This document shows, one piece after another, positions 10,811-29,904 of a DNA stretch of 64,000 nucleotides (position 1 is the stretch's first letter; every line of letters begins with the position of its first letter). The translations under genes and the position numbers were made by a program. Origin of the DNA: Pseudomonas sp. CFII64 (GTDB lineage Bacteria > Pseudomonadota > Gammaproteobacteria > Pseudomonadales > Pseudomonadaceae); contig NZ_ATLO01000012.1 of the NCBI RefSeq assembly GCF_000416235.1, positions 62,001 to 126,000 of the forward strand, given 5' to 3'. The notes below the pieces were generated by a model that saw only the letters and a program-made list of their open reading frames with translations, was not told where the DNA came from and ran no database searches.

Positions 10811-10842
10811 GCAAAAACCGGTGAATGTTGATTCTCTGACAG

Positions 10843-10870: not shown

Positions 10871-10921
10871 CGGCGTCGGGGTCAACTGTCTTCTCTGGCA
10901 GCGCCTTTTTTTAAGCCTTTG

Positions 10922-10939: not shown

Positions 10940-11014
10940 GCCCGATCATCAGGGTCTCAGGAGATTGAAAACCACGCTGTACCAATGCCGAATTTCACAA
11001 TAAGGAAAATAAGA

Positions 11015-12382: not shown

Positions 12383-12419
12383 CTTCTGTTTACAACCTCA
12401 CGATTGAAGGAGAGCGCAC

Positions 12420-13580: not shown

Positions 13581-13656
13581 ACTGAACCGCGCTGTGGCTT
13601 GCAGCGCTCCGGTGTGCGAGGCTCTGAGCAGAGCCTCTATAAAAGGATGAACAACG

Positions 13657-14610
13657 ATGATCGACAGCAAAGGCGATGTTTTAGTCTGGGGTCCCATGCA
13701 TGCATCCTTGATGCAGGCGCTGGAAGCCAACGTCAATGTGCACAAGCGCTGGGAGATAGCCGACTTCGACAGTTGGGCGGTTTCCCACGCCCAAGCCATA
13801 CGTGTCGTTGTGACCAGCGGTGTGTACGGTGCCGATAACGCGACGCTGGACAAACTGCCCAATCTCGAAGCAATCACCAGCTTTGGCGTTGGCTATGACG
13901 CGGTCGACACCACTTACCTCGCCGGTCGCGGCATCCAGTTGAGCAATACGCCCGACGTGCTCAACAACAGCGTGGCTGAAACCGCACTTGCGTTGATGCT
14001 CTGCGTGTCACGGCGCATCAGTGAAGCCGAGCGCTTCGTGCGTGCGGGCAAATGGCAGCAGACGAAATTCCCCTTGGGCAACGACCTGCATGGCAAAACC
14101 TGCGGGATCGTCGGGTTGGGCAAAATCGGCAAAACCATCGCCAAACTGGTCAGTGCATTCGATATGCACGTCGCCTATTTCCGGCCAAGCGGGCCTTATG
14201 CCGATGTTTCCTACACTCATTACGCTGATCTTCAGGAACTCGCAGCGGCTGCGGATTACCTGGTCGTCATTGTTCCCGGTGGGGCGGACACGCGACACCT
14301 GATCAATCGTGACGTCATGCGCGCACTCGGCCCGTCGTCATTTCTGATCAACGTGGCCCGGGGCACCGTCGTTGACGAGGCTGCGTTGGTGGCTGCGTTG
14401 CTTGAATCCGAAATCGGTGGCGCCGGGCTGGATGTGTTCGATGACGAACCTAATGTCCCGGCCGAATTGATCGCTATGGATAACGTTGTGCTGCTGCCAC
14501 ACATTGGCAGCGGCACTCACGAGACTCGCCAGGCTATGGCGGATCTGGTCTACGCGAATCTTGCTGCGTGGTTTGAGCAAGGAAAACTGGTGACGCCAGT
14601 GAGTCTGTAG
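13657..14610 (+). CDS. D-isomer-specific 2-hydroxyacid dehydrogenase
   Basis: The 317-residue protein has the NAD(P) motif GLGKIGKTIAKL and the catalytic set of the family: Arg in NVARGTVVDE, Glu in DVFDDEPNVP and His in LLPHIGSGTHETR. This is the layout of glyoxylate/hydroxypyruvate reductase and 2-ketogluconate reductase. Translation starts after AAAGGATGAACAACG. It follows the dehydratase by 76 bases and probably shares its transcript, suggesting that it reduces or oxidises a 2-keto acid made in the same pathway. The exact substrate is not evident. Confidence 0.88.
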   Translation: MIDSKGDVLVWGPMHASLMQALEANVNVHKRWEIADFDSWAVSHAQAIRVVVTSGVYGADNATLDKLPNLEAITSFGVGYDAVDTTYLAGRGIQLSNTPDVLNNSVAETALALMLCVSRRISEAERFVRAGKWQQTKFPLGNDLHGKTCGIVGLGKIGKTIAKLVSAFDMHVAYFRPSGPYADVSYTHYADLQELAAAADYLVVIVPGGADTRHLINRDVMRALGPSSFLINVARGTVVDEAALVAALLESEIGGAGLDVFDDEPNVPAELIAMDNVVLLPHIGSGTHETRQAMADLVYANLAAWFEQGKLVTPVSL

Positions 14611-15062
14611 GAGCCAACTTGTTGGCGAGGTGTTAGTGAAGTCTGCCCGTACGCTTTTGATTTTCGCTTTTTCGTGCTGCGATCTGGCAGACGCCGCCAA
14701 ACGCGCGTCGGGAGGCTGAGCGCAGGTGTCGTGGGGTGGGGCGACCGGCATGGATGCCGGTCGAGCGCCGTTGCGCCAGGGATGGCGCGTCGGCGCGTAC
14801 CCACCCCACGGCACCGGAGCGAAGGAACCCCTGCGAAGCAGGGGCCGGACGTCAGCGCACAATGGTTTCGTCCTTTGCCGAAACAAAGGACTCGACCGTC
14901 AGGGCGAAACCTCAATAAGCCGCACCGCAAATGCTGTTGGTGCTACCCGATTCGAAACGCAGCGCCAGAAAAAATCAGGTAGAACCGCTGCGCGCTGATG
15001 ACATACAAGGAGCGAACTTGTTGGCGAGGCGTATCGCCTGGCCGCTTCGCTGGCAAACTCGC
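14607..15062. repeat. Multi-hairpin dispersed repeat flanked by REP-like ends
   Basis: No gene is supported in this stretch. REP-like ends lie at 14607-14630 (GAGCCAACTTGTTGGCGAGG) and 15008-15062 (GGAGCGAACTTGTTGGCGAGG, then CTGGCAAACTCGCTC). Between them is a chain of perfect hairpins: a long outer stem pairing 14730-14740 with 14800-14810; inside it ACCGGCAT/ATGCCGGT (14744-14761) and GCGCCA/TGGCGC (14773-14788); then CCCCTGC/GCAGGGG (14828-14844) and GTCCTTTG/CAAAGGAC (14870-14891). Such elements occur between genes in Pseudomonas. Short open frames inside it are by-products of its GC-rich repeats. Confidence 0.7.
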
Positions 15063-16105: not shown

Positions 16106-16135
16106 GGATTTTATTTCGCCTAAAACCGCTGTAAT

Positions 16136-16148
16136 ACAATACGATTGT
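16136..16148. promoter_or_regulatory. Candidate GntR/FCD operator upstream of the regulator gene
   Basis: ACAAT-ACG-ATTGT is a perfect interrupted palindrome about 100 bases before the GntR start. ATTGTnTA-type half sites are common for FadR-subfamily regulators. The heptamer CGATTGT at 16142-16148 recurs at 17360-17366 in the next promoter region. Confidence 0.45.
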
Positions 16149-16246
16149 GTATAACGCAGCCGATCACGAGGATGGGGTGCGCTCGATCCAGGCGATGGCC
16201 CGCGCGGCGTCGCAGCAATGAATGTGAAGGTCTCAGGGAATCCACC

Positions 16247-16927
16247 ATGAAAGTACAACGCCAGGCGTCATCTTTGCGGCATCAGGTACAGGATGCACTG
16301 CGCAACGAAATCATTTCCGGCCGGTTCAAACCCGGTGATCGGCTGGTGGAGCAGCAGCTCTACACGGCCCTGGATGTGAGCCGCACGTCATTGCGCGAAG
16401 CGCTGCGGCAACTGGAAGCGGAAGGTCTGGTGGAGCAGGTTCCCCATCGCGGGGCGTACGTGGCCTCAGTGGATGCCAACGACGCGATTCAGATCTACGA
16501 CGTGCGCGGTGCGCTGGAAGTGCTCGCCGTGCGTAATTTCGTGCGCTACGCCACTGACGAAGACGTGACCGAGCTGGCGGACGTTTTCGACGAGTTTGTC
16601 GAGCAATCCCACACCGAATCCCTCGACGGCGCAGCGCTGCTGGACATCAAACGGCGCTTTTATCATGTGCTGCTGGATATCGAGCAGAGCAATGTGGTCG
16701 GCAGCATGCTGGAACAGTTGAACAACCGCGTCAGCCTGCTGCGGGCCTTGTCCCTCGGTCGTCAGGGACGAATGGTGCATACCTTGGCGGAGCTCAAGGA
16801 AATCGTGCGCATGATTCAGCTGCGCGATGAGCCCGGCGCATGCGCGGCGGCGTTGCTGCACGTGGAAAACGCCTCGAAGAACGTGCTGGAATTGCTGGCG
16901 CTGAATGGCGTTCACTCGGTGCAGTAG
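16247..16927 (+). CDS. GntR family (FCD domain) transcriptional regulator
   Basis: The 226-residue protein has an N-terminal winged HTH (LRNEIISGRFKPGDRLVEQQLYTALDVSRTSLREALRQLEAEG). An FCD ligand domain follows, with IYDVRGALEVLAVR, DIKRRFYHVLL and a C-terminal all-helical part. FCD regulators usually sense organic acids and control catabolic operons. The start at 16247 gives the expected MKVQRQASSLRHQVQDAL beginning. It lies just before a divergent NIPSNAP gene and the long catabolic operon, and is their likely regulator. Confidence 0.9.
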   Translation: MKVQRQASSLRHQVQDALRNEIISGRFKPGDRLVEQQLYTALDVSRTSLREALRQLEAEGLVEQVPHRGAYVASVDANDAIQIYDVRGALEVLAVRNFVRYATDEDVTELADVFDEFVEQSHTESLDGAALLDIKRRFYHVLLDIEQSNVVGSMLEQLNNRVSLLRALSLGRQGRMVHTLAELKEIVRMIQLRDEPGACAAALLHVENASKNVLELLALNGVHSVQ

Positions 16928-16978
16928 CTTTTGTATATACGAGCCGATTGGCCGGCCCCTACAGCACCCACCCAGCAC

Positions 16979-17305
16979 TCAGCGCAACGCTGAATACGCG
17001 GTCGGCGTGAGGAACTGGTTTTCGATGCGCTGCACGATGATCGCCTGGGCTTCGCTTTCGGCGCGTTTGGCGATCCATTCAGCGTCACTCTGGAACGCAT
17101 TCCACTTGGTTTCCCGGTCGGCAAGGCTGTCCCATTTCAGCACATAGGTCAGGGTCTGATTGCTGTCGCCGCTCAGCGACGTCCAGAAACCCACTTGCTC
17201 GATTCCATACTTTTCGAAAAAACCCAGAGTGATTTTGCTGAAGCGTTCATGCAGGGCCGGCAGGCGGCCCGGTGCGCAATGGTAGATACGTAGTTCAACG
17301 ATCAT
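16979..17305 (-). CDS. NIPSNAP family protein
   Basis: This 108-residue protein begins MIVELRIYHCAPGRLPALHERF and continues ITLGFFEKYGIEQVGFWTS, then YVLKWDSLADRETKWNAF. This is the NIPSNAP ferredoxin-like (dimeric alpha-beta barrel) pattern. The family is often encoded in degradation clusters, but its biochemical role is mostly unknown; isomerase, monooxygenase or stress functions have been suggested for the fold. The start at 17305 follows AAAGGAGCAGAAAA. It is divergent from the first dehydrogenase gene across a 176-base region with a perfect 13-base palindrome, so it probably belongs to the same regulon. Confidence 0.85.
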   Translation of the reverse strand: MIVELRIYHCAPGRLPALHERFSKITLGFFEKYGIEQVGFWTSLSGDSNQTLTYVLKWDSLADRETKWNAFQSDAEWIAKRAESEAQAIIVQRIENQFLTPTAYSALR

Positions 17306-17365
17306 TTTCTGCTCCTTTGGTAAGCGCCGATCAGGAAATAGGCAAAGTAGCCTATTGACCGATTG

Positions 17366-17378
17366 TATGACAGTCATA
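17366..17378. promoter_or_regulatory. Candidate operator in the NIPSNAP/dehydrogenase divergent promoter
   Basis: TATGAC-A-GTCATA is a perfect 13-base palindrome within a TGTATGACAGTC context. A near copy, TGTATGACAATC, occurs at 19888-19899 ahead of the first carboxymuconolactone-decarboxylase-family gene. Shared sites suggest one regulator, most likely the nearby GntR protein. Confidence 0.5.
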
Positions 17379-17481
17379 TAGTTTTGTCGCAACTGCTGGC
17401 GCGCACCGAGCAGAAAAAACTTCAGGTGCCGCCGTGAACCCGTTTTGAAGAACCCGTTTCCAAAAACAATAGGGCGCGAAC

Positions 17482-18372
17482 ATGACTCAACCAAAACGCA
17501 TCGGTTTCATCGGCCTCGGCATGATGGGGCTGCCGATGACCACCTGCCTGAGCAAGGCCGGGTTTCAGCTGTTTCTTGCCGATGCCGATGCGGGGCGGCT
17601 GCAGGAAATTCAGACTGCTCTTGGCGCATCCGCACTGGATGCCGACAACGCCAAATCCCTCGATGTGCTGATCACCATGCTGCCCAATTCGAACATCGTC
17701 GAAAGCGTATTGCTGGGCGTCGACGGGCAATCGGGCTGGGCCGCATCACTGACGGCCGACACGGTGGTCATCGATATGAGTTCCTCTGAACCAGCGCGCT
17801 CCCGGGATCTTGGGCAGAAGCTTGCCGGCATCGGCCTCGCTTATCTGGACGCTCCGGTTTCCGGCGGCGTGAAGCGCGCAGTCGATGGCTCGCTGGCGAT
17901 TCTGGTCGGCGGCGATCCAACGGTAATGCAGCGCTGTCAGTCGGTACTCGACGCGATGGGCAAGAACATCCTGCACATTGGCGCAGCGGGCTCCGGCCAT
18001 GCGGCCAAGGCGCTGAACAATTTCGTCTCCGCCGCTGGCTTGATGGCCACGGTTGAGGCATTGCATGTGGCCAAGCGTTTCGGCATCGATCCCGGCGTGA
18101 TGGTCGACGTGCTCAACGCCTCCAGCGGCGGCAGCAACACCTCGTTGAACAAGGCCAGACAATTCATGCTCAGCGGCAGCTTCGCTTCCGGCTTCTCGAT
18201 GCAGTTGATGAACAAGGACCTGAAGATCGCCAAGGGCCTGTCGGATGCGCTGGACTACCCGCTGTTGTTCGGCCAGCGCGCGATCAAGGTCTGGGACGAG
18301 GTGGCGCAAGACGCAACGCCCACCACCGACCACACCGAGATGTACCGGATGCTGGCCAAGGAAGGCGAGTAA
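17482..18372 (+). CDS. Beta-hydroxyacid dehydrogenase (3-hydroxyisobutyrate DH family), copy 1
   Basis: The 296-residue protein has the N-terminal NAD(P) motif IGFIGLGMMGLPMT, the substrate-binding DAPVSGGV, and the catalytic lysine in GHAAKALNNFVSAAG. Family members oxidise 3-hydroxy acids or reduce tartronate semialdehyde. The acidic residues after the second strand (FLADADAGR) favour NAD. It opens the long plus-strand operon, 38 bases before an aldehyde dehydrogenase gene. That pairing would fit alcohol-to-semialdehyde-to-acid oxidation. Two distant paralogues lie further along the same operon. Confidence 0.9.
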   Translation: MTQPKRIGFIGLGMMGLPMTTCLSKAGFQLFLADADAGRLQEIQTALGASALDADNAKSLDVLITMLPNSNIVESVLLGVDGQSGWAASLTADTVVIDMSSSEPARSRDLGQKLAGIGLAYLDAPVSGGVKRAVDGSLAILVGGDPTVMQRCQSVLDAMGKNILHIGAAGSGHAAKALNNFVSAAGLMATVEALHVAKRFGIDPGVMVDVLNASSGGSNTSLNKARQFMLSGSFASGFSMQLMNKDLKIAKGLSDALDYPLLFGQRAIKVWDEVAQDATPTTDHTEMYRMLAKEGE

Positions 18373-18410
18373 TCGCGTTATTTGCGCAGATCGTCAACGG
18401 AGCAAAGCCT

Positions 18411-19838
18411 ATGTCTCATGCAGCCGAATTTTACATCAATGGACAATGGGTGAAGCCTGCGGCTCCCGATTGGTTCGACGTCATTGATCCGGCAACGGAA
18501 ACCGTCGTCGACCGTCTTGCCTTGGGCAATTCCACGGACGTTGATCGTGCCGTCGCCGCAGCGCGCCGGGCTTTGCCCGCGTACGCGCAAACCAGCGTTA
18601 CCCAGCGCATCGATTTACTGCGCCGCATCGTCTCGATTTATGAGCGTCGTCAGGAGGAATTTGCCCAGGCCATGCGTCTGGAAATGGGCTCGCCCATCAG
18701 CGCCTCGCGCAATTTCCAGGTGCCACGTGGCTGGTTGCACCTGAACCAGTTGATTGAAGTGCTGCAACGTTTTGAATTCGAGCAGCGCCAGGGCAGCACG
18801 GTATTGCGCTACGAGCCGGTGGGCGTGTGCGGGCTGATTACGCCGTGGAACTGGCCGATCAACCAGATCGTGGTGAAAGTCGGCCCCGCGCTGGCGGCTG
18901 GTTGCACCATGGTGCTCAAGCCCAGTGAATATTCACCACTGAGCAGCCTGCTGTTCGCCGAGGTATTGGACGAGGCGGGCGTGCCAGCGGGTGTGTTCAA
19001 TCTGGTCAATGGCGACGGGCCGGGTGTCGGCGCCGCGCTGTCGGCGCACCCGGATGTCGACATGCTGTCGTTCACCGGCTCGACGCGCGCTGGCGTGCTG
19101 GTGGCGAAATCGGCGGCGGACACCGTCAAGCGCGTTGCCCAGGAGCTGGGCGGCAAGTCGGCGAATATCCTGCTCGATGACGTCGATCTGCAAAACGCCG
19201 TAACCCGCGGCGTTGCGGCCTGCTTCACCAACAGCGGCCAGTCATGCTCGATTCCGACCCGCCTGTTGATCCCCCGTAACCTGATGGACGATGCAATCCA
19301 GATCGCGAAACGAGCTGCCGAAGCGTTCAAGGTTGGCGCAACCACCGACGACGCCACCCAGCTTGGGCCGCTGGTCAATCATGCGCAATGGCGGCGGGTT
19401 CAGGCGCTGATCCAGGCCGGTATCGACGAGGGCGCGCAACTGGTGACGGGTGGCGTGGGCAAGCCTGAAGGCCTGTCCAAGGGCTATTTCGTCAAGCCCA
19501 CGGTGTTCGCCAACGTGACGCCGCAGATGTCCATTGCCCAGGAAGAAATCTTCGGCCCGGTGCTGTCGATGATCGCCTATGACGATGAGGCGCAAGCGAT
19601 TCAGATCGCCAATGACACGCCTTACGGGCTGGCGGCGTACGTGCAATCGGCTGATCAGGACCGGGCACGTAACGTCGCTCGCGCCTTGCAGGCTGGCAGC
19701 GTTCACCTGAATTACCCGCCTGCGGATTTCGCCGCGCCGTTCGGTGGTTACAAACGCTCCGGCAACGGCCGGGAGTGGGGCGAGTTCGGTTTGCGCGAGT
19801 ATCTGGAAGTGAAATCCCTGGTGGGTTACGGCGACTGA
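18411..19838 (+). CDS. NAD(P)-dependent aldehyde dehydrogenase
   Basis: The 475-residue protein has the full ALDH signature set: TPWNWPINQ, FTGSTRAG, the general-base Glu in VAQELGGKSANIL, the nucleophile Cys in NSGQSCSIPTRLL, and EEIFGPVLSMIAYD near the C-terminus. Length and order are normal for non-acylating aldehyde dehydrogenases. It is the second gene of the uncharacterised operon, where it could oxidise a semialdehyde formed by the preceding dehydrogenase. The substrate is not evident. Confidence 0.92.
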   Translation: MSHAAEFYINGQWVKPAAPDWFDVIDPATETVVDRLALGNSTDVDRAVAAARRALPAYAQTSVTQRIDLLRRIVSIYERRQEEFAQAMRLEMGSPISASRNFQVPRGWLHLNQLIEVLQRFEFEQRQGSTVLRYEPVGVCGLITPWNWPINQIVVKVGPALAAGCTMVLKPSEYSPLSSLLFAEVLDEAGVPAGVFNLVNGDGPGVGAALSAHPDVDMLSFTGSTRAGVLVAKSAADTVKRVAQELGGKSANILLDDVDLQNAVTRGVAACFTNSGQSCSIPTRLLIPRNLMDDAIQIAKRAAEAFKVGATTDDATQLGPLVNHAQWRRVQALIQAGIDEGAQLVTGGVGKPEGLSKGYFVKPTVFANVTPQMSIAQEEIFGPVLSMIAYDDEAQAIQIANDTPYGLAAYVQSADQDRARNVARALQAGSVHLNYPPADFAAPFGGYKRSGNGREWGEFGLREYLEVKSLVGYGD

Positions 19839-19927
19839 AATCCTGGTTGAGCCAAAGCGCTGAGCTAAAAAATTTGCCTGCGAAGACTGTATGACAATCT
19901 GTCGATAGTACGAAATTGGAGATAACG

Positions 19928-20323
19928 ATGGACGACAACGAACGCTTTAACCAAGGCTTCAACAACCGCAAGGAAGTCCTCGGTGATCTGCATGTGGAGA
20001 AATCCTGGGCCGCAGCGGATGACTTCAATCGGCCGATCCAGAAGCTGGTCACCGAGGTGTGCTGGGGCGAAATCTGGGGCGACGAAACCTTGCCGTTCAA
20101 GACCCGCAGCATCGTCAATCTGGCAATGCTCACCGCCATGAGCCAGCACCACGAACTGGGCGTTCACGTGCGCGGCGCCTTGCGTAACGGGGTGACCAAG
20201 GACGAAATCCGCGCGGTGCTGATGCAGGCCTCGATTTACTGCGGCGTGCCGCTGGGCCTGGCGGCGTTCCGTGTCGCATCAGCGGCGATCAAGGCCTACG
20301 AGGCGGAAATCGCCGACGCCTGA
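19928..20323 (+). CDS. Carboxymuconolactone decarboxylase family protein (single domain)
   Basis: The 131-residue protein matches PcaC-type enzymes in size and layout. It has NRPIQKLVTEVCWGEIWGDETLP, TRSIVNLAMLTAMSQHHELGVHVRGALRNGVT, and EIRAVLMQASIYCGVPLGLAAF. PcaC decarboxylates gamma-carboxymuconolactone. The rest of the protocatechuate pathway is absent here, so an analogous decarboxylation or a related reaction in the unknown pathway is more likely. ATG at 19928 follows TTGGAGATAACG. The 89-base gap before it holds a TGTATGACAATC element, so an internal promoter is possible. Confidence 0.85.
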   Translation: MDDNERFNQGFNNRKEVLGDLHVEKSWAAADDFNRPIQKLVTEVCWGEIWGDETLPFKTRSIVNLAMLTAMSQHHELGVHVRGALRNGVTKDEIRAVLMQASIYCGVPLGLAAFRVASAAIKAYEAEIADA

Positions 20324-20373
20324 TCCGCTTCAAAACCTCCCTTGCCGTTCAACAATAATTATAAGGAAACGTC

Positions 20374-21726
20374 ATGAGTACCCATGCCCCCGCCCAAGCA
20401 CAGGCCAGGCCGCTGGCCGAGACCGATCAGTCGATCGAGAAGAAAAGAAGGAACGCGATCAAAGGCGCGTTCTTCTCCGAATACATCGATATGTTCGACA
20501 TCTATTTGCCGGTCGTCGTGCTGTCCCCTGTGTTGTTCTTCTTCCAGCCTGCCCAGTTGTCGCCGGGCATGGCCGCGATTCTCGCCTCACTGGTGTTCAT
20601 CACCACGCTGCTTGGGCGGCCCATTGGTGCACTGTTGTTCGGCATGATCGCCGACCGCACCGGGCGGCGCATGGCGTCGATTTATTCGGTGTCGGGCTTC
20701 GGCATCGTGACTTTCCTGATTGCCTTGCTGCCGGGTTACGAGACCATCGGCATAGCCTCGTACTGGGCCTTGGTGCTGCTGCGTTTTGTCGACGGTATTT
20801 TCCTCGGCGGTGGTTACACCGGGGCCATGCCGCTGGCTATCGAGTATTCGAAAAAGCATCAGCGTGGCTTCGTTGGCGGCTTGATCATCGCCGGTTTTCC
20901 GCTGGCCTACGTCAGCATCAATCTGGTGGCAATGTTGATGTTCATGCTGTTCCCGCTGGCCGGTCCCGATTCGCCGTACGTGCAATGGGGCTGGCGGATT
21001 CCGTTTGTGATCGGCGCTGTGCTGGCCGGCGTGCTGGCGCTGTATTACATCTATGCGGTCTCGGAATCCGAAATCTGGGAAGAAGACGCCGAGAAAAAAC
21101 CTCGGGAAAAACTGCCGCTGACTGATCTGCTCAAAGGCAAAAGTGGCCGCAATCTGCTGCAAGTGCTGCTGATGATGACCGGCTTCTGGCTGACGCAGAA
21201 CATCATCACTATTTTCCTGCCCACCGGATTGTTGGTGAATATCCTGCATCTTTCGGGGATGCAAGTGACCGGCACGCTGCTGATTTGCTACTCGGTACTG
21301 TTCTTCAGCTACATCGCTTCGGGGATGATCGGCCAGAAAATCGGCCGCCGACGCTTCTTCCTGATCCTCGGGCCGATCATCGCCACGGTCGGCGCGGGCG
21401 TCATGTATGTGCTGGCCAACGTGCCGGGATTGTCGCTGCCGGTGATCATGACCCTGGTGTGCCTGCTGTCGGTAGTGGTCACTGCGCCGTGGGGCGTGAT
21501 CGTCACTTACATCAACGAGCGTTTTGTCACCGACGTACGCGCCACCGGTTTTGGCGTCGGCTTCAGCCTGTCGGTGATCATCCCGTCGTTTTACGCCTTC
21601 TACATGGCGTGGCTGGGCCAGATCATTCCTTTCACCATGACCCCCGCAGTCCTGCTGTGCGTGGGCGGTGTCATCGCCACGATTGGTGCGTACATGGGCC
21701 CGGAAACCAAGGACGTCGACTTCTGA
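20374..21726 (+). CDS. MFS transporter, metabolite:H+ symporter (MHS)-like
   Basis: This 450-residue protein has twelve predicted helices. Its N-terminal region AIKGAFFSEYIDMFDIYLP and the loop FGMIADRTGRRMASI (between helices 2 and 3) are typical of the metabolite:proton symporter branch that imports carboxylates and aromatic acids. The stretch LRFVDGIFLGGGYTGAMPLAIEY is the family helix-5 signature. AAGGAAACGTC gives a good ribosome-binding site. It probably brings in the substrate of the surrounding operon, which is therefore likely an organic acid. Confidence 0.88.
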   Translation: MSTHAPAQAQARPLAETDQSIEKKRRNAIKGAFFSEYIDMFDIYLPVVVLSPVLFFFQPAQLSPGMAAILASLVFITTLLGRPIGALLFGMIADRTGRRMASIYSVSGFGIVTFLIALLPGYETIGIASYWALVLLRFVDGIFLGGGYTGAMPLAIEYSKKHQRGFVGGLIIAGFPLAYVSINLVAMLMFMLFPLAGPDSPYVQWGWRIPFVIGAVLAGVLALYYIYAVSESEIWEEDAEKKPREKLPLTDLLKGKSGRNLLQVLLMMTGFWLTQNIITIFLPTGLLVNILHLSGMQVTGTLLICYSVLFFSYIASGMIGQKIGRRRFFLILGPIIATVGAGVMYVLANVPGLSLPVIMTLVCLLSVVVTAPWGVIVTYINERFVTDVRATGFGVGFSLSVIIPSFYAFYMAWLGQIIPFTMTPAVLLCVGGVIATIGAYMGPETKDVDF

Positions 21727-21769
21727 CGCGTGCCTGACCTGACAGAACAATAACCAACGGGAGAACGTT

Positions 21770-22681
21770 GTGGACAACAAAACCATTGGCTTCATCGGCC
21801 TGGGCAACATGGGCGGTCGCATGACCCGCTGTCTGGTGGATGCAGGCCTTGCGGTACTGGGTTATGACACGGATCGCCAGCGTGTCGAAAGCGCTGGGGC
21901 ACAGGTTGCCGAGTCCATCGGCCAGGTCGCTGCACAAGTGGACGTGGTGTTGCTGTCGCTGCCGGACAGCAAGGTGGTCGAGGCCGTCGTCGAAGGGCCT
22001 GAAGGGTTGCTGCGCCATTGCCACGAAGGCCAGATCGTGGTCGATTTGAGTACCGCTGCCGCCAGTTCAACCGTGCGTTTGCACGCTCTGTTTGCCGAAC
22101 GCGGCGTGCAGTACATCGACGCCGGGATCTCCGGCGGCGCGGCTGCGGCGCAAAAGGGCGCGCTGACCTTGATGGTCGGTGGCGATGCCGCCAGCGTCGC
22201 GGCCCTGGACTGGGTATTTGCGCCCATCGCCAGCAAGGTGTTTTTGATGGGCGAAAGCGGCGCCGGACACACCACCAAGTTACTCAACAACTTCCTCAAC
22301 GCAGTGAGTCTTGCCGCCACCGCCGAAGTGATGGTCGCCGGCAAAAAAGCCGGTCTGGACCTGCACCAGCTACTCGACGTGCTCAACAGCAGCAGCGGGG
22401 TCAATTTCGCCACGCAGAAGCGCTTCCCGTACATCGTCGACGGCAATTATCTGGAAGGCGGCCTGACCGGCAAATTGATGAGCAAGGACGTGGTGCTCTA
22501 CCTCGACCGGGTGCGTGAGCTGGGCGTTGCTTCGCTCAATGCCTCCGGGCCTTTGGCGAGCTTCGGCCTGCAGGTCGCGCTGGGTTACGGCGACCAGATC
22601 AGCAACAAAGTCGTGGATGCCATCGGCGATATGTCCGGCGGCGTCCGGCTTCACCAAACCTGGAAAGAGGACAAGGCATGA
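21770..22681 (+). CDS. Beta-hydroxyacid dehydrogenase family protein, copy 2
   Basis: The 303-residue protein starts with GTG after CGGGAG. It has IGFIGLGNMGGRMTRCL for NAD(P) binding, DAGISGGAAAAQKG for the substrate loop, and GAGHTTKLLNNFLNAVSLA with the catalytic lysine. It differs widely in sequence from the copies at 17482 and 26919, so these are not recent tandem duplicates. Its stop overlaps the cupin gene by four bases (ATGA), which points to translational coupling. Confidence 0.9.
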   Translation: MDNKTIGFIGLGNMGGRMTRCLVDAGLAVLGYDTDRQRVESAGAQVAESIGQVAAQVDVVLLSLPDSKVVEAVVEGPEGLLRHCHEGQIVVDLSTAAASSTVRLHALFAERGVQYIDAGISGGAAAAQKGALTLMVGGDAASVAALDWVFAPIASKVFLMGESGAGHTTKLLNNFLNAVSLAATAEVMVAGKKAGLDLHQLLDVLNSSSGVNFATQKRFPYIVDGNYLEGGLTGKLMSKDVVLYLDRVRELGVASLNASGPLASFGLQVALGYGDQISNKVVDAIGDMSGGVRLHQTWKEDKA

Positions 22682-23067
22682 AGGTTATTCACGGCAGCAT
22701 CGAAGGGGCAATTTCCGAGCAGCGCGGGGCGACGTTTACCGGCGTGGTCTGGGCTGATCCGGTGATGCCGACCACCGACGGCGTGACCATCAACAACGTC
22801 TCGTTCAATCCCGGTGCGCGTACGTTCTGGCATTTTCACGAGTTCGGTCAGGTGATTTACGTTACCGCCGGCAGCGGCTGGATCTGTCTGGAAGGCAACG
22901 ATCCCCAGGTGATTCGTCAGGGTGACACGGTGTGGATCGGCCCGGGCGAACGGCATTGGCACGGCGCCAATACCGAGAACTTCATGGTCCACACCGCGAC
23001 CTCCATCGGCAAAACGGTGTGGCAGGAAGCGGTTGCCGACCGCGATTACCTGCGCGCCGCGCGCTGA
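22678..23067 (+). CDS. Small cupin-domain protein
   Basis: The 129-residue protein is a single cupin. Metal ligands are visible in the first motif, FNPGARTFWHFHEFGQVIYVTAGSG (His-x-His and Gln/Glu positions), and in the second, GPGERHWHGA. Such proteins can be dioxygenases, isomerases, decarboxylating enzymes or lactone-cleaving enzymes. The closest layout is the carboxymuconolactone-decarboxylase-associated cupins that occur beside CMD genes, as here. It overlaps the preceding dehydrogenase and lies 24 bases before the double CMD gene. Confidence 0.88.
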   Translation: MKVIHGSIEGAISEQRGATFTGVVWADPVMPTTDGVTINNVSFNPGARTFWHFHEFGQVIYVTAGSGWICLEGNDPQVIRQGDTVWIGPGERHWHGANTENFMVHTATSIGKTVWQEAVADRDYLRAAR

Positions 23068-23091
23068 TCCTGCAACAGAGGAGACCCGCAC

Positions 23092-23874
23092 ATGGCATTC
23101 ACCGAAAAACAACAACAGGCCAGGGATGCGTTCGAGCGTAGCGGCGGCAGCTGGAATCCGGCGTGGGAGAGCATCCTGCGTCTGGACCCTGGTTTTCTCG
23201 AAGCCTATGCCGGATTCGCCGCCGTGCCGTGGCAAAAGAACCATCTGGAACACAAGGTCAAGGCGTTCATCGGCATTGCGGCCAGCGCCGCCGCGACCCA
23301 CTTGTTCCAACCGGGCATTCACGAGCATTTGCGGGTCGCTATCGCCCATGGCGCAAGTCGCGAGGAGCTGATGGAAGTGCTGGAGTTGATCAGCACGGTC
23401 GGCATTCACGCCTCGAATGTCGGGGTGCCGGTGCTGCTCGAAGTGCTGGAGGAAGAGGGCCTGCGTAATGGGCCTGAACCACTGGATGCCCGGCGCGAGG
23501 CGCTGAAATCCAGCTTTGTCGAGAATCGCGGCTATTGGCATTCGTGCTGGGAAGGTTTACTCGAACTCGACCCGGAGCTGTTCGAAGCCTACGTCGAGTT
23601 CTCCTCGGTGCCGTGGCGCACCGGCGTGCTGTCGCCGATGGTCAAGGAATTGATGTATTGCGCGTTCGATGCCGCCGCCACGCACCTGTATGTGCCGGGC
23701 CTCAAGCTGCATATGCGCAACGCCTTGCGTTACGGCGCGAGCAAGGAACAGATCATGGAAATGCTGGAGATCGTCAGCGTGATCGGCATTCACGGGGCGC
23801 TGGTCGCCGCGCCGATGCTGGAACACGCCTGGGGCGAAGCCGCCCAGCCGGCCAATCCGAACCCGGACCTTTAG
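23092..23874 (+). CDS. Tandem carboxymuconolactone-decarboxylase-domain protein
   Basis: The 260-residue protein is made of two similar CMD halves (about residues 15-125 and 140-255). The internal repeat is plain: PWQKNHLEHKVKAFIGIAAS against PWRTGVLSPMVKELMYCAFD, HEHLRVAIAHGASREELMEVLELIS against KLHMRNALRYGASKEQIMEMLEIVS, and GIHASNVGVPVLLE against GIHGALVAAPMLEH. The first half lacks a CxxC. The function could be decarboxylation or lactone chemistry, but there is no direct evidence. The adjacent cupin is a frequent partner of this family. Confidence 0.85.
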   Translation: MAFTEKQQQARDAFERSGGSWNPAWESILRLDPGFLEAYAGFAAVPWQKNHLEHKVKAFIGIAASAAATHLFQPGIHEHLRVAIAHGASREELMEVLELISTVGIHASNVGVPVLLEVLEEEGLRNGPEPLDARREALKSSFVENRGYWHSCWEGLLELDPELFEAYVEFSSVPWRTGVLSPMVKELMYCAFDAAATHLYVPGLKLHMRNALRYGASKEQIMEMLEIVSVIGIHGALVAAPMLEHAWGEAAQPANPNPDL

Positions 23875-23895
23875 CCCTAATCAATCGGAGTCGAC

Positions 23896-24744
23896 ATGAA
23901 CAATAACAATCCGACGACCGCAGCAAAGCCGAACTGGAACCATCCCGAAGTGATCGTGGTGCGTTACGGCACCCGGCAGACCAGCAAGAGCGAGTGCTAC
24001 TACAACTTCCGCGCCTATCGTGAGCCGGACGAAGAAATCACCATGGATTACTTTTTCTGGATCTTCCGCAACGACGAGCAAGTCATCGTCATCGACACCG
24101 GTTTCAGCCCGGAGGCAGCGCTGGCACGCAAGCGCCAACCGGTGGTCAAGCCGGCCGATGCGTTGGCGAGGCTGGGCATTGATCCCGCTGAAGTGAAGCT
24201 GCTGGTGCTGACTCACGCGCACTATGATCACGCCGGTAATCTTGGTCTGTATCCCAATGCGCAGATCGTCATGTCCCGACGCGAGTTCGAGTTCTGGGGC
24301 ACCGACATGGGCAAGCGCCCGCAATACGCGCATCACATTGATCCGCTGGACATCCAGCGCATTCAGGCCTTGGCGGATGCGGGGCGCATCACCTTGCTGG
24401 ATGAGCCGCGCAACACGTTGATTCCCGGTATCGAATTGCACGAACTCGGCGGCCACACGCCGGGGCAACTGGCGGTGGTCATCGAAATGCCCGAAGGGCC
24501 GGTGATCCTGGCGTCCGACGCCATTCACTATTACGACGAGATGGAACAGGATCGCCCGTTCGCGGTGCTCGACAGCCTGGCGGACATGTATCAGGGCTAC
24601 GTGCAGATCCGCGAATGGTTGCAGCGTCCCGGCGCGGTGATGATTCCCGGCCATGATCCGGACGTGATGAACCGCTTCGCCGCTGTCGATCCTGCCGATC
24701 CGACGTTCGCCGTGCGTATCGATGCCAGCGGAGCGGGCATATGA
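23896..24744 (+). CDS. Metallo-beta-lactamase-fold hydrolase (lactonase-like)
   Basis: This 282-residue protein has the dinuclear metal motif THAHYDHAGN, then GGHTPGQLAV, an Asp ligand in LASDAIHYYDEM and the last His in IPGHDPDVM. This set and the ASDAIHYY segment resemble N-acyl-homoserine and gamma-butyrolactone lactonases. Within this operon a role in opening a lactone intermediate is more plausible than quorum quenching, but both remain open. Its last codons overlap the SDR start by four bases. Confidence 0.85.
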   Translation: MNNNNPTTAAKPNWNHPEVIVVRYGTRQTSKSECYYNFRAYREPDEEITMDYFFWIFRNDEQVIVIDTGFSPEAALARKRQPVVKPADALARLGIDPAEVKLLVLTHAHYDHAGNLGLYPNAQIVMSRREFEFWGTDMGKRPQYAHHIDPLDIQRIQALADAGRITLLDEPRNTLIPGIELHELGGHTPGQLAVVIEMPEGPVILASDAIHYYDEMEQDRPFAVLDSLADMYQGYVQIREWLQRPGAVMIPGHDPDVMNRFAAVDPADPTFAVRIDASGAGI

Positions 24745-25508
24745 AGGGCAAGCGGGCGCTGGTCACCGGCTCGTCAAACGGACTTGGCCTGGCCATGGCC
24801 CAAGGCCTTGCGGCAGCGGGTTGTGATGTGGTGTTGCACGGGCTTGATTCGTCGGTCGACATGCACGCGACTTGCGCGGATCTGGCGCAGCAGTACGGCG
24901 TGGCGATCAGTTATGTGCAGGCCGATCTGTCGCAAGCCTCGGGTGTCGAGGCAATGCTCGATGCGGCGGGCGCGGTTGACGTGCTGATCAATAACGCCGT
25001 CGTGCGGCATTTTTCGCCCATCGAAGACTTCCCGCTCGAGCGCTGGGAGCAGGCGCTGGCGGTCAATCTGACCGCAGCCTTTCGCGCCGTACAGCTGAGT
25101 TTGCCCGGGATGCGCGCGCGGGGCTGGGGGCGGATTTTCAATATGTCCTCGGCCTATGGTTCGCGGGCGATTGCCAACCGTATCGATTACGTCACCACCA
25201 AGACCGCGCTGCTGGGCTTTACCCGCGCGGTTGCCATGGAAACGTTGGGGCAGGGCATCACGTGTAACGCGGTATGCCCTGGCTCGGTGCTGACGCCGAA
25301 TATCGAAGGGCGGTTGACCGATCTGATGGCGCGCAAGCAGCTGGACCGGGAAACCGCGACACGGGAGTTTCTGCTCGGCAAGCAGGGCACCGGTCGCTTT
25401 GTCGACGCGGCGCATGTGGCGGACTTGATCGTATTTTTGTGCAGTGATTCCGGGGCTTCGATCACTGGCGCGACCTTGCCGGTGGACGATGGCTGGTTGG
25501 CGGGATGA
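24741..25508 (+). CDS. SDR family oxidoreductase
   Basis: The 255-residue classical SDR has TGSSNGLG for the cofactor, an NNAV variant of NNAG, an active-site Ser in FNMSSAYGS, YVTTKTALLG as YxxxK, and the usual C-terminal FLCSDSGASITGATLPVDDGW. It resembles 3-hydroxybutyrate dehydrogenases in its central motifs (RIFNMSS...AYVTTK-type order and NAVCPGSVLTP). Its start codon overlaps the preceding hydrolase gene. It may act on a hydroxy acid released by that hydrolase. Confidence 0.9.
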   Translation: MKGKRALVTGSSNGLGLAMAQGLAAAGCDVVLHGLDSSVDMHATCADLAQQYGVAISYVQADLSQASGVEAMLDAAGAVDVLINNAVVRHFSPIEDFPLERWEQALAVNLTAAFRAVQLSLPGMRARGWGRIFNMSSAYGSRAIANRIDYVTTKTALLGFTRAVAMETLGQGITCNAVCPGSVLTPNIEGRLTDLMARKQLDRETATREFLLGKQGTGRFVDAAHVADLIVFLCSDSGASITGATLPVDDGWLAG

Positions 25509-25555
25509 GGTCGACTCCTTTCTCCAGCACCATCACCCAGAACAACGGAGGCACC

Positions 25556-26917
25556 ATGCAGGTTCCTGCTGTCACCCGCCCGCTGTGCGAATTCATTGCG
25601 CGTTCAACGTGGGCCGACATCCCGCCCGACGTTCGCCATGAAGCCAAACGCGCGCTGGTCAATTATTTCGCAGTGGCGCTGGCCGGCTGCAACGATCCAG
25701 ACGTCAGCAAGGCAGTGACGTTGTTTCAGCGCTTCAGCGCGGGTGCCGATGCGCAGCTGATTGGCCGCGCGCAGTTGCTGGATATCCTCAATGCCACGTC
25801 GCTCAACGCCATGAGCGCCAATGTCTTCGACTTCGACGACACGCACATTCCCACCATCATTCACCCGACCGCACCGGTCGCAGCGGCGCTGTTCGCCTTG
25901 GCTGAAACCCGAACTTTTACTGGCGAGCAACTGTTGCTGGCGTTGGTTCTCGGCGTGGAAGTGGAATGTCGGCTGGGTTTGGCGATTTCCCCCGAACACT
26001 ATCGGCGTGGCTGGCATATCACCTCGACCTGTGGCGTGTTCGGGGCTGCCGCCGCTGTCGGCAAACTGCTGGACCTGAACGTCCAACAACTGGGCTGGGC
26101 CTTGGGCAATGCCAGCGCGCAAGCCTCCGGGCTGGTGGAAACACTGGGCAGCGCGGCGAAAAGTATCGGTGTCGGCAATGCCGCACGCAACGGCCTGCTC
26201 TCGGCATTGCTGGCCCAGGACGGTTTCAACGGGCCTGAATTACCCCTCGAAGGCGAGCGCGGTTTTCTCAAGGTCATGGGCGAAAATCCCGATTTTGCGG
26301 GGATAACCCAAGGCCTGGGAGAGCGTTGGGCGTTGCGCGCCAACACCTATAAACCCTATCCGTGCGGCGTGGTATTGAACCCGGTGATCGAAGCCTGCCT
26401 GGAACTGTCCCGCGAGCGCAACTGGGCGTTATCGGACCTCACCCGCATCGAACTGACCGGCCATCCTTTGCTGCGCCAGCGAACCGATCGGCCAACGATC
26501 AAGACAGGACGCGAATCACAGGTCAGTGCGCAACACGCCGTTGCTGTCGCGCTGGCCAGCGGGCGCGCGGGGCTTGCCGAATTCAGCGACGCGGCAGTGG
26601 CGGACAGCAACCTGCGGGCCCTGTATCCGCTGCTGCACTTTATCGACGATGACGGTTACGCCGTCGAGTCGGCACGGGTGCGGCTGTTTTTCCGCTCCGG
26701 CGAAATCCTCAGCCATCGCATCGACGTGGCGTCGGGCAGCCTGGGCGCGCCACTCGACGATAAAACTCTGGAACACAAACTGCGCGAACTGGCCCGTTAC
26801 GGCGGCTCAACCTGCGCGCCACAACCGCTGATCGATGCGCTGTGGTCTCTGCAACATGCCAGCGATGCCAGCGCGGTAATGCGCCTGGCGCGCGGCTCAC
26901 TTCATTCGGGAAATTGA
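25556..26917 (+). CDS. MmgE/PrpD family protein
   Basis: The 453-residue protein belongs to the MmgE/PrpD family (2-methylcitrate dehydratase, cis-aconitate decarboxylase, iminodisuccinate epimerase). Visible landmarks are the N-terminal helical part (DVRHEAKRALVNYFAVALAG), FDFDDTHIPTIIHPTAPVAAAL, GVEVECRLGLAI, and YKPYPCGVVLNPVIEACLEL. ATG at 25556 is chosen for its upstream GGAGG; an alternative ATG at 25505 overlaps the SDR stop. It suggests a dehydration, decarboxylation or epimerisation of a di- or tricarboxylic intermediate. It lies 1 base before the last dehydrogenase gene. Confidence 0.9.
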   Translation: MQVPAVTRPLCEFIARSTWADIPPDVRHEAKRALVNYFAVALAGCNDPDVSKAVTLFQRFSAGADAQLIGRAQLLDILNATSLNAMSANVFDFDDTHIPTIIHPTAPVAAALFALAETRTFTGEQLLLALVLGVEVECRLGLAISPEHYRRGWHITSTCGVFGAAAAVGKLLDLNVQQLGWALGNASAQASGLVETLGSAAKSIGVGNAARNGLLSALLAQDGFNGPELPLEGERGFLKVMGENPDFAGITQGLGERWALRANTYKPYPCGVVLNPVIEACLELSRERNWALSDLTRIELTGHPLLRQRTDRPTIKTGRESQVSAQHAVAVALASGRAGLAEFSDAAVADSNLRALYPLLHFIDDDGYAVESARVRLFFRSGEILSHRIDVASGSLGAPLDDKTLEHKLRELARYGGSTCAPQPLIDALWSLQHASDASAVMRLARGSLHSGN

Positions 26918-26918
26918 T

Positions 26919-27800
26919 ATGACAGAGCAACCACTGGGTTTCATTGGCGTCGGCATCATGGGACGGCCCATGGCCCGACGTCTGCTGGAAAAAGGCCATT
27001 CGCTGGTGATCTTTGATAAAGACCCGGCAGCCCTGGCCGAGCTTTCCGGCCTGGGCGCGCGGGTTGCCGACAGCGCCCGGGAAGTGGCCGACAGCGCCAG
27101 AATCGTCTTCACCAGCCTGCCCAGCCCGGCGATTTTCAAGGCCGTGGCTCTGGGGCCGGACGGCATTGTCGAAGGCAAGGCGGTGCGCATTCTGGTCGAC
27201 CTTTCCACCGTGGGTTCCCGGGCCGAACAGGAAGTTGCTGCCGGTTTGCTCAAGCACGACATTCAAACCGTCGATGCGCCCATCAGTGGTGGTGCAGCCG
27301 GGGCGAGCAAAGGCACCCTGGCGATGATGGTCGCGGGCAAGCCTGAAGCTGTCGCCCAGGTGCGTGAGCTGTTCGACGTGTTCGGCAAAGTCTTCATCGT
27401 CGGCGAGCAACCCGGCCAAGGCCAGTTGCTGAAATTGCTCAACAACATGCTCTCGACCACCGCATTCGCGATTACCTCGGAGGCGTTCGTCGCGGGCGTC
27501 AAGGGCGGGCTCGACCCGCACGTGATGATGGACGTGATCAATGCCGGGAGCGGCAAGAACGGCGCGACGCTGGACAAGTTTCCCAAACACGTCCTGCCCG
27601 GCACCTTCGATTTCGGCTTCCCGATTTCCAGCGTGTGCAAGGACATTGGCCTGGCCATCGAGGAGTGTCAGGCGCTGGGTGTGCCGATGTGGCTGGGCCA
27701 TTCGGCGCGGCAACTGTGGAACGTAGCCGCGCAGCAGGATGGCGGGGAACGCGACCTGACCGAATTGGTGCGTACTGTTGAAGGCTGGTCAAAGGATTGA
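26919..27800 (+). CDS. Beta-hydroxyacid dehydrogenase family protein, copy 3
   Basis: The 293-residue protein has LGFIGVGIMGRPMARRLLEKGH for NAD(P) binding, DAPISGGAAGASKG as substrate loop, and GQGQLLKLLNNMLST with the catalytic lysine. The sequence resembles tartronate semialdehyde or 3-hydroxyisobutyrate dehydrogenases. It is the last gene of the operon; only 13 bases separate it from the end of the convergent catR gene. Three such enzymes in one operon suggest several alcohol/ketone steps or stereo-specific oxidations. Confidence 0.9.
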   Translation: MTEQPLGFIGVGIMGRPMARRLLEKGHSLVIFDKDPAALAELSGLGARVADSAREVADSARIVFTSLPSPAIFKAVALGPDGIVEGKAVRILVDLSTVGSRAEQEVAAGLLKHDIQTVDAPISGGAAGASKGTLAMMVAGKPEAVAQVRELFDVFGKVFIVGEQPGQGQLLKLLNNMLSTTAFAITSEAFVAGVKGGLDPHVMMDVINAGSGKNGATLDKFPKHVLPGTFDFGFPISSVCKDIGLAIEECQALGVPMWLGHSARQLWNVAAQQDGGERDLTELVRTVEGWSKD

Positions 27801-27813: not shown

Positions 27814-28680
27814 TTATTTCTTGCTCAGCAACGCCAGGCATTGCTGGAGCACCGGCGAGACGTCGCCGGCGCGATAACTGACCACGATGGGCGACGTCGC
27901 GCTGCTGTCCAGCAGCGACGTGTAGCCAATGTCGTCACGATGTAGACGCTGTACCGAGGCGGGAACCAGGGTGATGCCGATGCCTGCCGCGACCAGACCG
28001 ATAGCGGTCTGCATTTCATTGACGGTTTGCGCGACGCGGATGCGCAAGCCTTGTCCGGCAAATATCCCCAGCACATGATCGGCATAACTCGGCCTCGGAC
28101 TGCCTGGGTACAGCACAAAAGGTTCGGCCGCCAGTTGCTTGAGGGTTGCCGGGCCGGCCAGCAGCGGATGCCCGGCCGGTAACGCCGCGACCAGCGGGTC
28201 TTCCCGAAGAATCTGCTGGGTAATCGCCGGGTCATCAAACAACAACCGGCCGAAACCAACGTCGATGCGTCCACTTTTCAGGGCTTCGAGTTGCTGCAAG
28301 GTAATCAGCTCGGACAGACCCAGCTCGATGTCGCCCAGTGCGCGCAGGCGGCGGATCAGATCCGGCAACGCGCCATACAGCGTCGACGGCGCAAAACCGA
28401 TGCCCAGCCAGCGTTTCTCGCCCGCCGCCACGCGTCGGGTATCGTCGCTGATGCGCGCCAGTTGCTCCAGCAACTGACTGGAATGCTCATGAAAGAATCG
28501 GCCAGCATCGGTCAGTCGCAGCGGTCTTGAGCGTTCCAGCAGCGCCACGCCCAACTCGTCTTCCAGTTGCTGGATCTGTCTACTCAGGGGCGGCTGGGCA
28601 ATGTTCAGCTGTTCGGCGGCACGGGTGAAATTCAGGGTCTGGGCGAGCACCCTGAAATAGCGTAAATGACGAAGCTCCAC
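27814..28680 (-). CDS. catR: LysR regulator of the catBCA operon
   Basis: The 288-residue protein is very close to CatR of other pseudomonads: MELRHLRYFRVLAQTLNFTRAAE, AQPPLSRQIQQLEDELG, GIGFAPSTLY and NPRPSYADHV-like SPRPSYADHVLGIF. CatR activates catBCA in response to cis,cis-muconate. It is divergent from catB across 102 bases, and a perfect LysR box overlaps the first bases upstream of its own start, as known for CatR autorepression. Confidence 0.93.
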   Translation of the reverse strand: MELRHLRYFRVLAQTLNFTRAAEQLNIAQPPLSRQIQQLEDELGVALLERSRPLRLTDAGRFFHEHSSQLLEQLARISDDTRRVAAGEKRWLGIGFAPSTLYGALPDLIRRLRALGDIELGLSELITLQQLEALKSGRIDVGFGRLLFDDPAITQQILREDPLVAALPAGHPLLAGPATLKQLAAEPFVLYPGSPRPSYADHVLGIFAGQGLRIRVAQTVNEMQTAIGLVAAGIGITLVPASVQRLHRDDIGYTSLLDSSATSPIVVSYRAGDVSPVLQQCLALLSKK

Positions 28681-28696: not shown

Positions 28697-28782
28697 TAAG
28701 CGAGACCTAATCAATATTGGACGCTGTTGTTCGCCAGCGTCAATCTCTGCGCAAGACAAATAAAACGTAGATGGACACGCCC

Positions 28783-29904
28783 ATGACTGCCATTACCATC
28801 GAACGCTTCGATACCCAGATCGTCGACTTGCCCACCATACGCCCGCACAAGCTGGCGATGCACACCATGCACGGCCAGACGCTGGTCATCCTGCGCATCT
28901 TTTGCAGCGACGGGATCGTCGGCATCGGCGAAGCCACCACCATCGGTGGCCTGGCCTACGCCGGGGAAAGCCCGGAAAGCATCAAGGTCAATCTGGACAC
29001 GTGGTTTGCGCCGCTGCTCATCGGCCAGGATGCCAGCAACCTCAACGCTGCGATGCAAAGGGTCGATCACGCCATTCGTGGCAATACCTTCGCCCGCTCG
29101 GCAGTGGAAACGGCGCTGCTCGATGCGCTCGGCAAGCGCCTTGGCCTGCCGGTTGCCGAAGTGCTTGGCGGCCGCGTGCGCGACGGGGTCGAGGTCGCCT
29201 GGACCCTGGCCAGTGGCGACACCAACCGGGATATCGAAGAAGCCGAGCGCATGCTCGATATCCGCCGTCACCGCCACTTCAAGCTGAAGATCGGCGCGGG
29301 CGAACCGGCGCGCGACATCGCGCACGTCGCGGCGATCAAGCGCGCCTTGGGTGATCGCGCCAGTGTTCGCGTCGATATCAATCAGGCGTGGAGCGAGGCC
29401 GTCGCCGTGCGTGCCTGTCGGTTATTGGCCGACGCTGGCGTGGAGCTGATTGAGCAACCGCTGTCCCGGCATGATCGCGCCGGGATGGTGCGGTTGAGCG
29501 CCCACAGCCCGATTCCGTTGATGGCCGATGAAGCCATCGAGTCGGTGCAGGACAGCTTTGCCCTCGCGCAAATGGGCGCCGCCTCGATTTTCGCTCTGAA
29601 GATTGCCAAGACCGGTGGCCCGCTTGCGGTGTTGCGTACGGCGGCCATCGCCCAGTCGGCGGGCATCAGCCTGTACGGCGGCACCATGCTCGAAGGCAGC
29701 GTCGGCACGCTGGCCGCCGCCCATGCCTTCGCCACGCTGGACAGGCTCGAATGGCACACCGAACTGTTCGGGCCGCTATTGCTGACCGAAGACATTCTGG
29801 TCGAGCCACCGGTCTATCGGGATTTCCAGCTGCTGATCCCGCGCACGCCGGGCCTCGGGCTGGAACTGGATGCCGAACGCCTGGCGCGCTTTGCCCGCCA
29901 TTGA
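28783..29904 (+). CDS. catB: Muconate cycloisomerase
   Basis: The 373-residue enolase-superfamily enzyme converts cis,cis-muconate to muconolactone. It shows DLPTIRPHKLAMHTM, the GEATTIGGLAY loop, the catalytic FKLKIGAG (KxK), metal-ligand strands in VRVDINQAW and ELIEQPLS, and IMADE-like LMADEAIESV, all as in Pseudomonas CatB. The ATG at 28783 aligns with known CatB starts and has GGA upstream; the ATG at 28771 would add four residues. It is the first gene of catBCA, divergent from catR. Confidence 0.95.
   Translation: MTAITIERFDTQIVDLPTIRPHKLAMHTMHGQTLVILRIFCSDGIVGIGEATTIGGLAYAGESPESIKVNLDTWFAPLLIGQDASNLNAAMQRVDHAIRGNTFARSAVETALLDALGKRLGLPVAEVLGGRVRDGVEVAWTLASGDTNRDIEEAERMLDIRRHRHFKLKIGAGEPARDIAHVAAIKRALGDRASVRVDINQAWSEAVAVRACRLLADAGVELIEQPLSRHDRAGMVRLSAHSPIPLMADEAIESVQDSFALAQMGAASIFALKIAKTGGPLAVLRTAAIAQSAGISLYGGTMLEGSVGTLAAAHAFATLDRLEWHTELFGPLLLTEDILVEPPVYRDFQLLIPRTPGLGLELDAERLARFARH

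Follow-up and report, generated by a model that had tools for sequence, protein, structure and literature searches.

A conserved and apparently undescribed catabolic gene cluster with a putative private operator in Pseudomonas sp. CFII64

Closest described systems and the gene cluster

Several described systems share parts with a cluster of 13 genes at positions 16247–27800 of the window, i.e., the whole 64,000-nucleotide stretch analysed here (contig NZ_ATLO01000012.1 of Pseudomonas sp. CFII64, part of a genome of 6,414,369 bases). The cluster includes gntR, a divergent NIPSNAP gene, and eleven plus-strand genes spanning 17482–27800 (Table 1), and judging from its sequence it is a genuine catabolic operon that is conserved, apparently has not been described, combines enzymes of known families and has a putative operator of its own. 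One similar system is the beta-ketoadipate pathway in its protocatechuate (pca) branch, with PcaB, PcaC and PcaD: the single-domain protein CMD1 is a relative of PcaC, whose decarboxylation needs no cofactor, and decarboxylation and lactone opening would be common to both, whereas CMD1 falls under the PcaC cut-off and PcaB, PcaD and the CoA steps are missing from the cluster. In strain LB400, pcaC is BxeB0647, within the pcaIJBDC group (PMC3572157). PDB 2q0t, from Paraburkholderia xenovorans LB400, has its orthologue here in the two-domain protein CMD2 (371 bits); 2q0t is encoded in the LB400 copy of the cluster (locus L073; 258 of 258 aligned residues identical). As of 2017, no report had described a function for 2q0t (PMC5615479). 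The small cupin is of one kind with 4bif and 4uxa, metal cupins known as hydroxynitrile lyases, and the residues H/H/Q/H align, but it scores below the family cut-off and sits in a catabolic setting without nitrile genes. Agrobacterium blcABC, which encodes a lactonase, an alcohol dehydrogenase and a semialdehyde dehydrogenase, likewise combines a lactonase, a dehydrogenase and an aldehyde dehydrogenase (ALDH) in a single unit; our cluster differs from it in using another dehydrogenase family and in having at least seven further genes.

The 13 open reading frames (ORFs), coordinates and short gaps of the initial annotation all match the ORF list. The eleven plus-strand genes are spaced, in order, by 38, 89, 50 and 43 bases, a 4-base overlap, 24 and 21 bases, two further 4-base overlaps, and 1 base (counted from the ORF ends, with the CMD1 start taken as 19928), and the start of gntR is an ATG inside a TTG ORF at 16145–16927. 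The protein families named there were each borne out by Pfam, with the transporter as MFS; its label of metabolite/H+ symporter (MHS) is based on TIGR00883, which reaches 194.9 bits against a cut-off of 443.45. The gntR product has both the GntR and the FCD domain, as expected of a local regulator of this family, and is the probable repressor of the cluster. According to Pfam, the 13 proteins include no ring-cleaving oxygenase (the cupin being the possible exception, as had been said), and no CoA ligase, transferase, thiolase, kinase or ring oxygenase. The initial annotation knew of no described pathway with this gene combination, and no such pathway was found here among the open-licence papers listed in searches on the combination or its parts, on the cupin and on isosaccharinate.

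Conservation of the gene set and active sites

Relatives of CMD2 turned up first in 19 plasmid records. A genome scan with an alignment of five of them gave 235 relatives, and 80 kept from the 235 were combined with four loci chosen from the 19 plasmid records. The resulting sample of 84 loci (35 Burkholderiaceae, 33 Actinomycetota, 12 Pseudomonas, 3 Enterobacterales and 1 Acidiphilium; groups assigned manually from record titles) is biased, and CMD2 is present in 84 of 84 by selection; L001–L003 (own or sister genome) and L088–L104 were excluded. ORFs of the relatives came from a crude caller, and each was given the family of its best phmmer match. Greedy gene picking dropped many cupin ORFs (35 vs. 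76 by direct matches), so direct-match counts were used; the score thresholds were set by hand, and two sets of counts differ slightly (ALDH 46 vs. 51, HIBADH_C 43 vs. 44). The CMD1 translation used here began at 19931, one codon inside the ATG at 19928, with its first residue set to M.

All 13 families co-occur in 37 of the 84 loci, which is beyond chance and agrees with the initial annotation in treating the genes as one unit. Gene order varies among taxon groups (e.g. MBL-SDR-PrpD-HIBADH_C-NIPSNAP-HIBADH_A-ALDH-CMD1-MHS-HIBADH_B-cupin-CMD2-GntR in P. caribensis, locus L006). The widely retained core consists of the MBL-fold hydrolase, HIBADH_B, the cupin, HIBADH_A, CMD1 and CMD2 (69–84 of 84), while SDR, MmgE/PrpD and HIBADH_C (41–44 of 84) form a separable add-on module of Pseudomonas and Burkholderiaceae. 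At the thresholds used, SDR and PrpD are confined to these two groups, and HIBADH_C is found there and in one actinomycete; Acidiphilium and many actinomycetes (27 loci) carry a different SDR. HIBADH_B and the cupin are adjacent in 73 cases, and HIBADH_A lies at most two places from CMD1 in 64 of 84 loci. The overall interpretation given earlier is partly supported: a single regulatory unit for a polyfunctional acid is probable, and it is refined here to a core plus a separable module.

Within the genus, CMD2 is found in 6 of 348 genomes, own genome included, and in the class sample in 1 of 369, which is our own genome. By CMD2 the closest named relative is the Pseudomonas locus L008 (97%), and in a HIBADH_B tree of 77 rows the 13 Pseudomonas rows form one supported group. 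We note that the CMD2 match in genome G426 contains one internal TAG, and that L012 (Pseudomonas agarici), probably the same genome by its coordinates, has NIPSNAP split over two ORFs; these copies are possibly decaying. An actinomycete variant of the cluster (L039) encodes a DUF6282 protein at 7418–8353 (225.3 bits), and its ORF family is found in eight loci. On five plasmids, more distant homologues of the two-domain CMD protein are accompanied by other gene sets and give no substrate clue; in Sinorhizobium meliloti pAK76 (L091, 12001–15409) such a gene is followed by two MmgE/PrpD genes.

Seven enzymes (the three dehydrogenases, MBL, cupin, ALDH and SDR) have intact active-site residues as read from the alignments. 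The SGG and KxxNN residues, which place HIBADH_A, HIBADH_B and HIBADH_C in the beta-hydroxyacid dehydrogenase superfamily, are intact in 70, 76 and 43 loci, respectively (S is replaced by T in 2 of 76 HIBADH_B proteins). The seven metal-site residues of MBL are kept in 78 of 78 proteins, with the HxHxDH motif at H107, H109, D111 and H112, and the cupin residues H52, H54, Q58 and H93, which correspond to the metal ligands of mandelonitrile lyase cupins, are kept in 76 of 76 and align with the same residues of 4bif. The catalytic Cys and Glu of ALDH are retained in 46 of 46 aligned homologues, and the Tyr and Lys of SDR in 41 of 41 (position 136 of SDR is occupied by T in 29 proteins and by S in 12). 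The CxxC pair of AhpD peroxidases is absent from the second domain of CMD2, which has D at position 193 in 84 of 84 loci; it is also absent from the first domain of CMD2 and from CMD1, as judged from the window proteins alone.

The families in the cluster are clear, and specific functions are not fixed by the model scores. In NCBIfam, HIBADH_A and HIBADH_C reach 208.6 and 193.4 bits against cut-offs of 397. The best MBL matches are the acyl-homoserine-lactone (AHL) lactonase models AttM, AidB and AiiA, and all three fall below their cut-offs (74.6 vs. 390, 69.9 vs. 360 and 59.7 vs. 375); ALDH scores 366.3 vs. 646.35 on the succinate-semialdehyde model. We also considered 3cky (2-hydroxymethylglutarate dehydrogenase) as a substrate clue, but it is the top match of all three dehydrogenases (156–159 bits) and is hence uninformative.

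A putative operator private to the cluster

New in this analysis is a candidate operator motif, ATTGTATKACA, found before gntR (ATTGTATTACA) and before HIBADH_A (ATTGTATGACA). It was derived from an alignment in which two intergenic regions from the window and from 11 Pseudomonas loci show conserved islands. The window contains two copies, compared with a match in 0 of 100 shuffles, and the whole 6.41-Mb genome contains exactly these two, both in the cluster. The second copy occupies the spacer of 16 bases that separates TTGACC (from 17355) from TATAGT (ending at 17382). This promoter-like arrangement is kept in Pseudomonas, and Burkholderiaceae have TTGAC...TATAAT around the operator; TTGAC and TATAAT-like hexamers frame the motif in 16 loci.

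Among the 84 loci, TTGTATNACA gave 43 matches in 29 loci, all inside the core span plus 2.5 kb (reversed control: 1), and ATTGTATKACA gave 39 matches in 27 loci (reversed control: 0). Motif loci include 12/12 Pseudomonas, 3/3 Enterobacterales, 11/35 Burkholderiaceae, 3/33 Actinomycetota and 0/1 Acidiphilium; presence in Pseudomonas is not independent evidence, whereas the 17 loci outside Pseudomonas are independent. Across the genus, ATTGTATKACA is found in 58 of 348 genomes, including all six with CMD2, where 13 of 14 copies share a contig with CMD2 and are no more than about 8 kb away; among the 342 genomes without CMD2, 52 have background copies, and the reversed control likewise shows scattered matches. 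A second transporter gene comes immediately after the motif in several Burkholderiaceae (in L006, motif at 2377 and gene at 2494). Because of the position of the motif, we infer that GntR represses the cluster through ATTGTATKACA. No paper pairing any two of TTGTATGACA, TTGTATTACA and GntR was found in the open-licence literature.

Table 1. Genes and putative control elements of the cluster, with the number of homologous loci (of 84) that contain each family.
Feature	Positions	Strand	Basis	Loci (of 84)
Putative GntR operator before gntR	16130..16140	-	Sequence match to ATTGTATKACA	
gntR, GntR/FCD regulator	16247..16927	+	PF00392 73 bits; PF07729 63.6 bits	62 (GntR family)
NIPSNAP family protein, divergent	16979..17305	-	PF07978 85.8 bits	46
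Promoter-like TTGACC-16-TATAGT	17355..17382	+	10/12 consensus matches, best of 5 in region	
Putative GntR operator in promoter spacer, before HIBADH_A	17362..17372	+	Sequence match to ATTGTATKACA	
HIBADH_A, beta-hydroxyacid dehydrogenase	17482..18372	+	NAD_binding_2/NAD_binding_11 (Pfam)	70
ALDH, catalytic Cys279 and Glu245	18411..19838	+	Aldedh (Pfam)	51
CMD1, single-domain, PcaC relative	19928..20323	+	TIGR02425 140.7 vs. cut-off 155.7	69
MFS transporter, metabolite/H+ symporter type (MHS)	20374..21726	+	MFS (Pfam); TIGR00883	51
HIBADH_B, beta-hydroxyacid dehydrogenase	21770..22681	+	NAD_binding_2/NAD_binding_11	76
Small cupin, H52/H54/Q58/H93	22678..23067	+	Cupin_2; NF049940 119.9 vs. cut-off 140	76
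CMD2, two-domain (orthologue of PDB 2q0t)	23092..23874	+	CMD (Pfam), two matched stretches	84 (by selection)
MBL-fold hydrolase, lactonase-like	23896..24744	+	PF00753 77.9 bits; AttM 74.6 vs. cut-off 390	78
SDR	24741..25508	+	Nearest model 3-hydroxybutyrate dehydrogenase, 247.6 vs. 307	41
MmgE/PrpD protein	25505..26917	+	N and C domains (Pfam); nearest solved structure IDS-epimerase 2hp0	42
HIBADH_C, beta-hydroxyacid dehydrogenase	26919..27800	+	NAD_binding_2/NAD_binding_11	44

Candidate pathway, alternatives and neighbouring genes

The reading that we tentatively favour, with slightly less than an even chance of being right, is an operon that controls its own expression and serves to break down a small hydroxylated carboxylic acid, with a lactone either as the form encountered by the cell or as an intermediate. 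GntR bound to ATTGTATKACA between the -35 and -10 hexamers would block transcription until an acid of the pathway releases it, the symporter would bring in the small hydroxy acid or lactone, and the MBL enzyme would open the lactone. Beta-hydroxyacid dehydrogenases give beta-keto or beta-formyl acids; since such products lose CO2 readily and PcaC works without a cofactor, we propose two split oxidative decarboxylations, in which a dehydrogenase would form the beta-keto or beta-formyl acid and a cofactor-free CMD protein would then remove CO2. HIBADH_A and CMD1 would make up the first such module, and HIBADH_B, the cupin and CMD2 the second, with the cupin catalysing a metal-dependent isomerisation or a retro-aldol-like step. 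ALDH would convert the resulting aldehyde to the free acid with no CoA, the whole pathway being predicted to run without CoA steps, and SDR, PrpD and HIBADH_C may channel a stereoisomer or related compound into the core.

The substrate class is weakly indicated as a sugar-acid-like or hydroxymethyl-branched acid. Three weak clues point to sugar acids: a gene for phosphoglycerate mutase that accompanies 10 of the 84 loci, each from Burkholderiaceae (TIGR01258 249.8 vs. a cut-off of 81.7 in the one member scanned); a LacI protein in L023 and L025 that resembles the gluconate repressor (295.5 vs. 400 in the one scanned); and an HpaI/GarL-like aldolase beside L062 (137.1 vs. 368.8 and 123.4 vs. 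406.75). Other substrates considered were pantoate, ascorbate, isosaccharinate, itatartarate and lactones derived from lignin, and no result singles one out. As the gene set is retained in Pseudomonas and Burkholderiaceae and is shorter in Enterobacterales, Acidiphilium and actinomycetes, it should serve a recurring natural compound. The repressor would be expected to respond to the substrate or to a pathway intermediate, and the putative operator makes the cluster directly testable. If the proposal is right, 2q0t and cupins known from cyanohydrin chemistry would both gain a setting.

Several observations weigh against the favoured reading. None of the matches listed for ten of the proteins reaches its NCBIfam cut-off (for ALDH and SDR, 25 of 41 and 25 of 220 matches are listed). 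As a class, promoter-like sites show no enrichment (5 in the region vs. a mean of 3.3 in shuffles), therefore the weight rests on conservation, and the exact TTGTATNACA is lacking in 55 of 84 loci. The pairing of HIBADH_B with CMD2 is weakened by the actinomycete loci, where the two are at most two places apart in just 2 of 33; eight loci have CMD2 without HIBADH_B or cupin, among them L039, L042, L062, L070 and L077, whose core genes are reduced to MBL, an SDR and CMD2, and L075 and L078 show CMD2 alone, which speaks against a universal unit. ALDH is missing from Acidiphilium and most actinomycete loci (present in 4 of 33). The substrate clues rest on few loci and may be unrelated to the pathway. 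A more specific version, an undescribed CoA-free pathway in which cofactor-free CMD-fold proteins and beta-hydroxyacid dehydrogenases act twice as a split analogue of 6-phosphogluconate dehydrogenase and a metal cupin of hydroxynitrile-lyase type has a natural, non-cyanide job, is doubtful; if true, the orphan structure 2q0t would gain a function, and a natural substrate common to two phyla would be revealed.

Instead of a single route, the genes could form several independent short pathways under one regulator. This would fit the absence of the SDR-PrpD-HIBADH_C module from Enterobacterales, Acidiphilium and actinomycete loci (save one HIBADH_C) and its relocation in Caballeronia, but we consider it unlikely given the recurrence of the complete set and the single putative operator pair in the genome. 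A gamma-lactone route like that of Agrobacterium blcABC, or the destruction of signal lactones, agrees with the nearest models of MBL and ALDH; it is less probable again, as both proteins are far under those cut-offs and two CMD proteins, the cupin, PrpD and a dedicated transporter would be left unexplained. For MBL, the same distances led us to reject AHL quenching as the principal explanation.

The window has benzoate-type genes to the right of the cluster, namely a LysR gene (27814–28680, minus strand), an MR_MLE gene (28771–29904, plus) and a Rieske oxygenase gene (32366–33742, plus). The adjacency to a benzoate pathway stressed at first is thus real, but it looks incidental, because homologous clusters in other genera have different flanks and because the operator motif is confined to the cluster within the host genome. 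These flanks and the PcaC score of CMD1 would suit a variant of the lower pathway of aromatic ortho-cleavage, with a compound like carboxymuconolactone as substrate, CMD1 in the role of PcaC and MBL in that of an enol-lactone hydrolase. Such a variant is improbable, and the pca pathway was rejected as the principal explanation: besides the differing flanks, the genome has another PcaC above the cut-off (190.4 bits, contig C10), and the 13 genes include no ring dioxygenase, cycloisomerase or CoA transferase. Cupin-led hydroxynitrile or cyanide metabolism, to which the mandelonitrile lyase model and the alignment with 4bif might point, is most improbable of all and was likewise rejected, since the cupin is under the cut-off and nitrilase, nitrile hydratase and other nitrogen genes are missing from the 13.

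Other features of the window include a consecutive run of genes for a LacI regulator, an MFS transporter, an MR/MLE enzyme and a D-2-hydroxyacid dehydrogenase (9752–14610, plus), perhaps a separate sugar-acid operon; a match to the TwoAYGGAY RNA at 14738–14802 (plus; 47.7 bits vs. a gathering threshold of 43), flanked by genes for a 2-hydroxyacid dehydrogenase and a GST; an Old-yellow-enzyme type FMN oxidoreductase (6133–7332, minus; PF00724, 277.5 bits); and a luciferase-like monooxygenase (52046–53470, plus; PF00296, 162.4 bits).

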